A stretch of 64,000 bases of DNA from Dermatophagoides farinae. Taxonomy: Eukaryota; Arthropoda; Arachnida; Sarcoptiformes; Pyroglyphidae. Below, piece after piece: positions 34,012 to 37,548 of the stretch. Below the pieces are notes generated by a model. The model made no database searches. It worked only from the letters and a program-made list of their open reading frames with translations, and was not told the DNA's origin. Location: NCBI RefSeq assembly GCF_024713945.1, contig NC_134683.1, forward strand, positions 3,597,501-3,661,500, read 5' to 3'. Numbering within the stretch: position 1 is the first letter of the stretch; every line of letters begins with the position of its first letter. The translations under genes were made by a program, and so were the position numbers.

Positions 34012-35102
34012 ATGAATGTATCATATATCGAGTTTTATGCATGCATGCATGTGATACAAAAGCGGTATCAAAATTGCATCTTTCAATTGTCATTCTTTTT
34101 TTTGGATCCGAATTATAATTTGAAAACTAATATAAAATGTTTGTAGAATTTTCTGTCAAATTTTATTTATTTATTATTCTAATTAAATTCATTTTTTTTG
34201 TACACACAGGGGTAGTACGACAGCTTTGAAAGAATCGAAAGATGGAATAAAAGGTCGAAAACGAAGCCGAAGTATTAGCTCACGATCCAGTGGCAGGTAA
34301 GTTGGATTTTAGATTTTAAAAAAAATATTTACAAATTTTAAATGCCCGATTCACCAATAGTTCCAGAAGCCGTTCACGTAGTAGTTCTGCTTCTTCTCGA
34401 TCAAGTTCAAGTGGATCATCAAGTCGTAGTTCTAGTTCACGATCCGTTTCTTCACGTTCATCACATTCATCCAGTTCGAAAAGTTCGGGATATCGTCGCC
34501 GTTATCATCGTGATCGTGGCGATTCACCAAGAGATCGTCGTGGTGCCCCACCACCGCCATCATCATCATCATCGAAAAAACGTGGTCCATCACCAATACC
34601 ACCATCATCGGTTTTCACTCGACTTTACATTGGACGTTTAACTCGTAATGTCAATCGAGATCATTTGCATGAAATCTTCAGTGCTTTTGGCAAAGTTATC
34701 TGCGTTGATTTGCCAATGGATCGTATGCATAGCCATTTAAATCGTGGCTTCGCTTATGTTGAATATGAGAACGCTGATGATGCAGTTAAAGCTGTAAAAT
34801 ATATGGATGGTGGCCAGATTGATGGCCAGGAAATCAGTGCATCCAAAATTGATCTACAAAAAATGCGAGGTCATCCACCACCACCACGTGGTGGAGGCGG
34901 GAGAAATTCCGGATGGCGACCAAATTCATCACCACCAAATCGTGGCCGACGACGATCACCGCCACCACCATCACGTAGATCACCACCACATTCAAGACGA
35001 CGATCTCGTAGTCGTAGTCGTACTCCACCACCGCCACCACCACCCATACGTGATAGTCGTCGTCGTCGTTCATCACGATCAAGTTCTGGATCATCTCGTT
35101 AA
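34012..35102 (+). CDS. RNPS1: RNPS1, exon-junction/ASAP complex RNA-binding protein
   Basis: Exons 34210-34296 and 34361-35102 are secure; a first exon 34012-34064 is tentative because its phase and GT donor fit, while no in-frame ATG exists in exon 2. Total about 293 residues. RNPS1 joins the exon-junction complex and ASAP complex in the nucleus and affects splicing and mRNA surveillance. Seen: a long Arg/Ser-rich N-terminus, then an RRM (FTRLYIGRLTRNVNRDHLHEIF, HLNRGFAYVEYENADDA) with the RNPS1-specific IGRLTRNV and MDGGQIDGQEI stretches, then an Arg/Pro/Ser-rich tail ending in RSSSGSSR. The start is the weak point; an alternative small first exon ending in the same phase at the nearby GTGATA donor is possible. 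Confidence 0.9.
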
Positions 35103-35343: not shown

Positions 35344-37548
35344 TTATAGTTCATCTTTCAGATTTTCTTTATCCAATTCTTCTTCTTCGACCACTTCCTA
35401 TATTTGAAAAATTAAAAAAAAATGATGATGAAATGTATTAATAATCAATAAATGATAATCTTTTTTTTGTGAAAATCATTGGAAATTTTTTTTTTTTTTT
35501 TGAAGCCGATTTTTGTTTCAACGTAATGGATAAAAGAAACATCACATAGACGCACAAGCAGCATATACACACATATATAGAGAATAGATCAACATAACAT
35601 ATCTAACCTCAAGTGGTGGACTAGCACCTTTGCTACCACCAGATTCAATAAATTCCGAAAGGCCTTGTAATGTTCTTTCACCATTAAAATCGACAATCTA
35701 TAGATTCGTTATCATTAAATCATAAAATTGGGTAATTGTTATGGGGGAAAAAGGAGGATGGAAAACAAAACGAAAAAAAAGAGAAAAAAAAACTTAGTCA
35801 TGCAAATGAAACGATACATGTACCGAATCTGGAGCGGCACGTCCATAATCGCCGCCCGTTTCGATGAATTTTGAAATGCCTTCCAAAGTACGTTCACCGT
35901 TATATTCAATTACCTAAAACGAGGTTAAATAATTTGAAAAAAAAATTTACAAAATAAAAATGTGATGAATATGAATATGAATACCTCATTTGTATCACGT
36001 TTATAAAGTTTAAATGTTGGATATGATGCAATTTTCGTATGTTCAAGCTCATTAGCTGTAGCATCCATTTTTGTAATCAAAACATTTTGATTATCTTTAT
36101 ATTTTTCACCTAATTGTTCATAAACAGGTGCCAAATTTTTACAATGTCCACACCATGGTGCATAAAATTCCACTAATACATCTTTTTCTTTATCAAATGC
36201 AACCGAATCAAAATTATCAGATACAAGAATTTTTACTGGATTTTTATCCCAATCTTCTGGTAATTCTTGTGAAAGTAAATGTTGCTATAAAAAATAAAAT
36301 AAAAAACATTAGGTAATGATTAAGAAAAACGCCATGACAAAATTTACCTTGATTTTACCATCCAAAACACCGGCAACAAAATCTTTAATTGATTGTTCGT
36401 TGAAATCATTTGTTTCTGGTTTGAATTTAGTCATTTCATCTTCCAAACGAATCAAACGCATTGATGGAACCTGTTCTTTTTGAATGCCGAAAAATTCCAT
36501 AATCTTTTCATGTTCATCATCATCGGCGTTCAATATGACGAAAAGAACTTTTCCTTTATATGATTTGGCAGCTGAACGATAGGTTTCAATTTTTTTCTCA
36601 TAATCATCATCTTTTTGACTGATGAATAATAGTAGATGTGATTTGATTTCACCGCCAAAAATTTTCTTTGCAGTCTATACATTGATGAGATTGATGAAAA
36701 TTTTTGAAATAATTTTGTTTTAAGAATTTCACTTACATCGTGATTAAATTCAACGGCCAACGGCAATGAATTGGCAGCGATAAATAATTTAAGATTATCT
36801 ACACTATATTCACCATCAAAATCATTGCGATTTTCATCGAATTTTTTGAATAATACAACACGTTCACCATCCTCAGTAATGGCCAATGATTCGGCAACAG
36901 ATTTATCCGTAATCAATGCAAATGGAATGGCATCATTTTCTGCGGCTACTTCTAGATACAATTTTGCATTTGCACTATCCTTATCGGGAAAATAACCAAC
37001 GACAACAACTTCTTGACTATCACGGAATTTCGCTGCATCTTCAGCTGTTGTGAGATCTTGAGCTGGTGGACCAGTCTTTTTCTTCAACCATTTAATAATA
37101 CCTTCAGCCGTACGATCACCATTATAATCGATTGGTTTACCATTGCGGAAAAATTTCAATGTAGGATAACCACGTACATCATAATTTTCAGCGAGATCGG
37201 TTTCTTTTGTTGCATCTACTTTGGCAAGAAGAATTTCAGATTTTTCTGCTGCCAATTCAGTTGCCGCTTTAGCATATTCCGGTGCCAATGATTTACAATG
37301 AACACACCATGGAGCATCTAAAAAAAAATTAAATAAAATTAATAAAAATTCAATCAAAAAAACAAAAAAATCATTTCCATACAAAATTCTACAAGAATGG
37401 CCGGTATAGCTATAGCATCATTGAAATTATCATTATTCAAAACGAGTACATTTTCTTCACGTTCGATATCATCGACTGAACCACCATTGACAGTTGTTTG
37501 TATTATGGCCACCACAAGGGCTAAAATTACAAATGATTTTGTCATCAT
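35344..37548 (-). CDS. PDI: Protein disulfide isomerase (P4HB type) with two alternative versions of one exon
   Basis: Coding exons 37383-37548, 36737-37317, 36348-36674, 35985-36284, then 35824-35913 or 35608-35697, then 35344-35397; with one alternative exon the product has 505 residues (human 508). It forms and shuffles disulfides in the ER lumen. Seen: signal peptide [20 protein letters not shown]; domain a with active site WCVHCK; domains b and b'; domain a' with canonical WCGHCK and the [10 protein letters not shown] strand; an acidic tail and the retrieval signal KDEL. The first active site has Val where almost all PDIs have Gly (CGHC). The two 90-nt exons encode homologous versions of the end of domain a' (YNGERTLEG versus FNGERTLQG). 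A GCCACGT site at 37908-37914 may mediate stress control. Confidence 0.95.
35608..35697 (-). CDS. PDI: Alternative exon B of PDI (duplicate of exon at 35824-35913)
   Basis: This 90-nt phase-0 exon starts [12 protein letters not shown] and ends GASPPLE. It aligns without gaps to the 90-nt exon at 35824-35913 ([12 protein letters not shown] ... RAAPDS), with about half of residues identical and most changes conservative. Acceptor CTATAG and donor GTTAGA flank it. Both versions can splice from 35985 to the KDEL exon at 35397 in the same frame, which is the signature of a tandem exon duplication used as alternative cassettes. Confidence 0.85.

Follow-up and report, generated by a model that had tools for sequence, protein, structure and literature searches.

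The window analyzed here, a 64,000-nucleotide stretch of Dermatophagoides farinae contig NC_134683.1, carries on its minus strand a complete PDIA1-type PDI gene, which the spliced reading frame traces from 37548 to 35344 in seven exons, both members of an alternative pair included, with GT-AG introns throughout. Exon 1 (37383..37548, from the spliced reading frame) provides the start codon, an N-terminal signal-like stretch, and the start of the a domain. It is followed by exon 2 (36737..37317), which encodes the a domain with its CVHC site and the b domain, according to the reading frame and to protein and Pfam matches, and by exon 3 (36348..36674), which the reading frame and protein match assign to the b' domain. 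Exon 4 (E4; 35985..36284; reading frame and Pfam) encodes the a' domain with its CGHC site and ends at the duplicated segment that is the subject of this report. The last coding exon (E6; 35344..35397, from the spliced reading frame) supplies 17 residues and the stop codon, with KDEL, the ER-retention signal, directly before the stop. The protein that uses the second version of the duplicated segment (B form) aligns with human PDI (8eoj) in a single continuous match over residues 24-501 (565 bits, E 1.2e-168), compared with 246 bits for the testis PDI-like protein and 238 bits for PDIA3. In the form that uses the first version (A form), Pfam recovers two Thioredoxin domains and one Thioredoxin_6 domain. 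The mite gene has the a-b-b'-a' architecture and is closest in similarity to PDIA1/P4HB.

Several features of the gene and its surroundings deserve separate mention. The active site of the a domain (37292-37309, minus strand) reads WCVHCK in this assembly and not WCGHCK, so that the a and a' sites are CVHC and CGHC, respectively, with the two cysteines kept in both. The other sites listed in PDI-family loci of the same genome are CGHC in seven cases and CHHC in one. The Val in place of Gly may change the redox properties of the site, or it may be an assembly error. Two other PDI-family genes (C7:2184389-2185774 and C18:78355-79635) each occupy a single open frame, of 533 and 528 codons, respectively, in which two matches to thioredoxin fall; unlike the gene studied here, they are apparently intronless in those regions. 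A plus-strand open frame (34320-35102) with RS-rich ends and an RRM-like middle, which we take to resemble the splicing factor RNPS1, lies tail to tail with the PDI gene, about 240 nt separating its end from the stop codon of PDI.

Between E4 and E6 lie two adjacent exons, EA (35824..35913) and EB (35608..35697), which are the first and second versions, respectively, of the end of the a' domain, as judged from the reading frame, Pfam, and peptide comparison. Each has 90 nt (30 residues), phase 0 on both sides, and its own GT-AG acceptor and donor. They are separated by an intron of 126 nt (35698..35823; reading frame and two mechanical intron scans), as against 62 to 71 nt for the four introns preceding EA. 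We assume from the topology of PDIA1 that the exon corresponds to the last strand and helix of the a' domain; it also encodes the linker to the acidic KDEL tail. By itself, exon 4 matches the Pfam Thioredoxin model over positions 2-83 of 103, and the addition of either EA or EB carries the match to position 102. All four combinations (EA, 505 residues; EB, 505; both, 535; neither, 475) are in frame and retain KDEL. The original prediction had called the two exons with these coordinates, lengths, phases, peptides, and splice sites, each joining the a' exon to the KDEL exon in frame to give two 505-residue isoforms, or one of 535 residues with both. Splicing the reading frame reproduces all of this, the products translating through to KDEL. 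The a' domain scores 98.1 bits with EA, 96.3 with EB, 98.3 with both, and 90.9 with neither; since these scores are nearly alike, with the skipping of both exons costing 5 to 7 bits, the Pfam score hardly separates the forms. Given that the combination of EA and EB is in frame and reaches 98.3 bits, double inclusion would not be prevented by mRNA decay, and the Pfam score does not speak against it.

The two exons are clearly homologous. Compared without gaps, they are identical at 15 of 30 residues and at 52 of 90 nt, with 16, 24, and 12 of 30 identities at codon positions 1, 2, and 3, respectively. The agreement is uneven along the exon, with 13 of the first 21 residues identical and only 2 of the last nine, in keeping with the earlier description of a conserved NGERTL-containing core and a divergent last third. 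With EA as the query, 29,375 stop-free 30-residue windows from the 64 kb were ranked by BLOSUM62 score. Apart from EA itself, EB ranks first with 91; the a-domain counterpart of this segment in the same gene reaches 38, and the next window 23. None of 100,000 shuffled EB peptides scored 91 or more against EA. Chance similarity between EA and EB is excluded. When E4, EA, and E6 were joined as a query against the whole genome, in a search that scores best candidates only, EA and EB were the only two among the 24 matches listed to match the exon segment independently, and the remaining matches listed were to thioredoxin-like stretches elsewhere in the query. Scanning other genome contigs turned up a single weak match, to the bacterial record L024 (30% identity), and viral contigs gave none; neither result bears on mites.

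The pattern of substitution speaks to the age of the pair and to the constraint on it. For all 30 codons, pS is 0.76 and pN 0.32; for the first 21 codons, the values are 0.84 and 0.18, and for the last nine, 0.60 and 0.64, indicating that silent sites are saturated, that the folded part is constrained, and that the linker has changed. We simulated neutral decay by freezing EA and letting a copy decay neutrally, a copy being passed as EB-like if it retained the frame, the AG and GT splice dinucleotides, and 13 of the 21 core residues. No copy passed among 16,574 replicates at exactly 52 of 90 nt identity, and, regardless of identity, the fractions passing were 0.080, 0.0010, and 0 at 0.25, 0.5, and 1.0 substitutions per site (20,000 replicates each). 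Over the first 21 residues, EA and EB share 13 identities, EA and human PDI 15, and EB and human PDI 13, so that the two exons are about as divergent from each other as either is from human PDI. These comparisons support an old tandem duplication with long-lasting protein-level constraint on both copies. The tandem exon duplication in a PDI gene that had been predicted at the outset is hence upheld by homology, by pS/pN, and by the neutral simulation.

The existence of two gap-free, constrained versions, each able to complete the a' domain, is best explained if they serve as alternatives; further, the constrained residues are those of a slot in the thioredoxin fold, which argues that EB works in the place of EA. 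We propose that of this old tandem pair most likely one exon is used per transcript, giving two 505-residue ER-resident PDIs. Mutually exclusive use is thus what we infer as the likeliest reading. The two exons are of similar length, keep the frame, have compatible splice sites, and are homologous, and the criteria for predicting mutually exclusive exons given in PMC3228551 (length, phase, splice-site type, homology, and adjacency) are those that EA and EB share. The same source reports that exons outside the mutually exclusive class seldom share these criteria on the Drosophila X chromosome: 90 of 16,180 do when counted per transcript, distributed over 6 of 1,705 genes (PMC3228551). A comparable arrangement is provided by the mutually exclusive exon clusters of muscle myosin heavy chain, which are also described in mites and a tick, with two to three exons per cluster in chelicerates (PMC3912159). 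Like the clusters described there, EA and EB are adjacent, homologous, of similar length and equal phase, and encode the same piece of a folded domain; unlike them, they belong to another gene family and are a predicted pair.

The regular inclusion of both exons, whereby in a PDI of 535 residues a complete a' domain would be followed by 30 additional residues ahead of the KDEL tail, is in our assessment unlikely. It is compatible with the fact that every junction involved is GT-AG and in frame, that the a' domain of such a protein scores as well (98.3 bits) as that with EA alone, and that the intron between the exons is longer than the first four of the gene, with a TTAAT 17 nt from its end. 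That 126-nt intron was also picked as coding-consistent by two mechanical scans, but these recovered few introns otherwise. Covering the window and 28 of 37 loci (the nine others being overlaps with the window or with each other, and the bacterial record L024), they yielded 10 non-overlapping candidates in one case and 42 in the other, 16 of them passing the cut-off. The first recovered one of the five PDI introns tested (that between EA and EB), and the second two of six (intron 3 and that between EA and EB); on account of this low recovery, they were not used to set branch-point rules. Against regular double inclusion stands the consideration that a plain C-terminal extension needs no fold residues, whereas EB keeps 13 of the 21, with pN of 0.18 against pS of 0.84 in that part. 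The argument against constant double inclusion is accordingly one drawn from the presumed fold.

Still less likely is the use of EA and EB as independent cassette exons, whereby transcripts would contain A, B, both, or neither in varying proportions and exclusion would not be strict. All these combinations are in frame with KDEL, and the cis-elements that might enforce exclusion are candidates; however, the form skipping both would have no a' end, that including both would repeat it, and the equal, gap-free length of the exons points to the replacement of one by the other. That one copy is a dead relic never spliced in, presumably EB with its poor acceptor (its pyrimidine tract, at 12 of 25, is the poorest of the gene, and its donor, GTTAGA, departs from GTAAGT), is highly improbable in view of its intact frame and splice sites, the pN/pS pattern, and the 0 of 16,574 neutral replicates at the observed identity, even though some of the less diverged neutral copies do pass (8% with 0.25 substitutions per site, 0.1% with 0.5).

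Returning to the reading in which one exon is used per transcript, we looked at the splice signals for a basis of exclusion. In the 25 nt before its AG, the EB acceptor has 12 pyrimidines, against 16 to 19 in the other five acceptors of the gene. Within the EA-EB intron, pyrimidines are densest in the 20 nt T9CTCT8 (35773..35792, minus strand, read from the sequence), directly preceded by a CTAAG (35793..35797), which by pattern only is a candidate distal branch point for EB, with the branch A 29 nt from the EA donor. No AG occurs between this tract and the EB acceptor, the AG-free gap before EB being 95 nt; such gaps are not rare, 133 of 1,844 on the minus strand being of at least 96 nt. A second candidate, again by pattern only, is the proximal TTAAT (35714..35718), which is 17 nt away from where the intron ends and, at this position, would permit splicing of EA to EB. 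In human clusters, a distance of less than 50 nt between donor and branch point has been taken as potential steric interference and applies to 57 (9%) of them (PMC5740500).

Among known systems, a close parallel is suggested by exons 2 and 3 of alpha-tropomyosin, in which exclusion results from a branch point placed too near the upstream donor. As in that gene, the EA/EB pair has a branch-point pattern and a strong pyrimidine tract near the donor of the upstream exon (29 nt); unlike in that gene, the EB branch point is a candidate pattern, a proximal candidate is available as well, and similar patterns occur elsewhere, with branch-A patterns at positions 28-30 of PDI introns 1, 3, and 4 and at position 30 of the EA-EB intron. 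The CTAAG and the T-rich tract near the EA donor weakly suggest, as a lead, a steric exclusion of the alpha-tropomyosin type. Two other routes to exclusion were considered. The donors show no sign of an incompatibility of U2 and U12 splice sites, all six being GT and none having the U12-type start, as judged by the general consensus for such donors. Exclusion through decay of the double-inclusion mRNA fails because both exons are multiples of three and the 535-residue product is in frame.

RNA secondary structure offers a further lead. The 5' end of EB (nt 3-33; 35665..35695, minus strand) is predicted to form one arm of a long hairpin, the other arm of which lies in the intron after EB (35505..35548). 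The pairing of EB with this downstream intron (z -2.69, reached by 4 of 300 shuffles) is the sole standout among the 11 pairings tested, the second strongest being that of EA with the same intron (z -1.17, 38 of 300 shuffles). Folded locally, the hairpin has a z of -2.98 (0 of 200 shuffles); the signal weakens in larger folds containing it (z -1.70 and -1.73). When 40 shuffles are used, the mean z for the hairpin window is -3.63, a value as low being seen in 2 of the 251 minus-strand windows examined (of 280); with 24 shuffles, its z ranges from -3.2 to -4.3, and 14 of 441 windows from both strands (of 560) reach -2.98 or lower. Only one of 2,665 sampled minus-strand segments, which overlaps the 5' end of EB itself, pairs equally well with 35505-35548, as do four plus-strand segments, two of which are the complement of that stretch. 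As the hairpin was found post hoc among 11 pairings, we treat it as a lead only.

The original prediction had suggested a search for competing RNA structures in the intron, and of these we found none, within the low power afforded by one genome. The three introns that flank EA and EB, paired two by two in search of a docking/selector arrangement, give z values of 0.54, -0.61, and -0.04, not beyond those of shuffles. Likewise, 317 of 2,665 minus-strand segments pair as well as EA does with the segment that partners EB, so that no competition is seen. The likeness to the Dscam-type docking/selector arrangement as presented in PMC6071210 extends to a downstream-intron segment that pairs with EB; the difference is that EA pairs with that segment no better than background.

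Taken together, these signals suggest how the choice might be made. EA would be the default exon, given that its pyrimidine tract is ordinary, that the tract of EB is the poorest of the gene, and that the 5' end of EB can hide in a hairpin. The joining of EA to EB would be disfavored because the best combination of branch pattern and pyrimidine tract available to EB sits 29 nt from the EA donor. If splice signals and hairpin act together, EB would be the regulated form, with EA as the default.

As to what is exchanged, the exon starts at residue 454 of human PDI and includes Arg461 in the NGERTL motif (numbering from the 8eoj alignment), and this loop arginine is kept in both EA and EB. From motif alignment, we take Arg461 to be the a'-domain counterpart of Arg120 in the a domain, with probably the same role. 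For the reaction with glutathione disulfide, it is reported that the second step is modulated by movement of Arg120 (PMC9598436, citing Lappi 2004). Most of the changes that distinguish EA from EB within the folded part are conservative (VI/IV, E/D, Y/F, I/L, and T/S), with E/Q and K/E altering charge, and in the linker, nine residues in each, DYGRAAPDS is replaced by SKGASPPLE with 2 of 9 kept. The conservative nature of most of the former changes and the altered linker together predict a mild change in the kinetics or contacts of the a' site with the fold unchanged; the EA and EB proteins would thus differ mildly in these respects and not in fold. Given that the replaced residues belong to the loop-arginine segment and to the linker preceding the tail, exon choice may as plausibly alter the kinetics of the a' site as tune substrate or partner binding, the effect suggested by the original prediction.

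With respect to binding, human prolyl 4-hydroxylase is described as a complex with an intersubunit disulfide between the alpha subunit and the active-site cysteine of a' (PMC9676403). Two loci of the mite genome match the P4Ha_N domain of such alpha subunits. By analogy with the human disulfide, the presence of these loci makes a partner effect possible, whereby exon choice may affect the contact with prolyl 4-hydroxylase. A more specific proposal is that exon choice swaps the loop-arginine segment and thereby sets PDI kinetics, with exclusion of the alpha-tropomyosin type and a hairpin that keeps EB hidden for as long as it stays closed; in this full form we consider it unlikely. PDI diversity is usually ascribed to paralogues. 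If the pair is used as alternatives, it would constitute a natural experiment on the role of the segment at the end of the a' domain, the loop arginine included, and would provide two PDI forms that could be compared in catalysis and in prolyl 4-hydroxylase binding.

Alternative splicing of the orthologous human gene, P4HB, is on record, with variants that lose domains or parts thereof (PMC7640458). Alternative splicing of the ortholog is what we predict for the mite; the difference is that the human variants described in that account include no exchange of homologous exons. In the fly, l(2)01289, with PDI activity, appears in PMC3827500 with an unclassified sex-biased splicing event. Among the open-licence papers listed in our survey, judged by title and opening of the abstract, none describes mutually exclusive exons in a PDI gene or deals with how this mite gene is spliced. 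EA and EB are probably a new example, in a PDI gene, of a well-known tandem-exon splicing arrangement.

Finally, we note some observations made in the same genome on genes related to allergens. Over query residues 8-118 of 118, the protein encoded by locus L035 shows no difference from the solved allergen Der f 21, and it is on this match that the sequence itself identifies the host as a house dust mite, most likely D. farinae. Two genes of the Blo-t-5 family, one of them Der f 21 (C4:4170433-4171937), are divergently oriented, with about 800 nt between them. Locus L017 is group-2-allergen-like, with Der p 2 as its best match (108 bits), and its greater distance from the solved group-2 proteins indicates that it is probably a paralogue. 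Matches to the papain family (Peptidase_C1) are found on C2, C3, C4, and C5, with in-frame stop codons in 8 of 38; these stops may reflect introns or else disrupted copies within a large family related to allergens.
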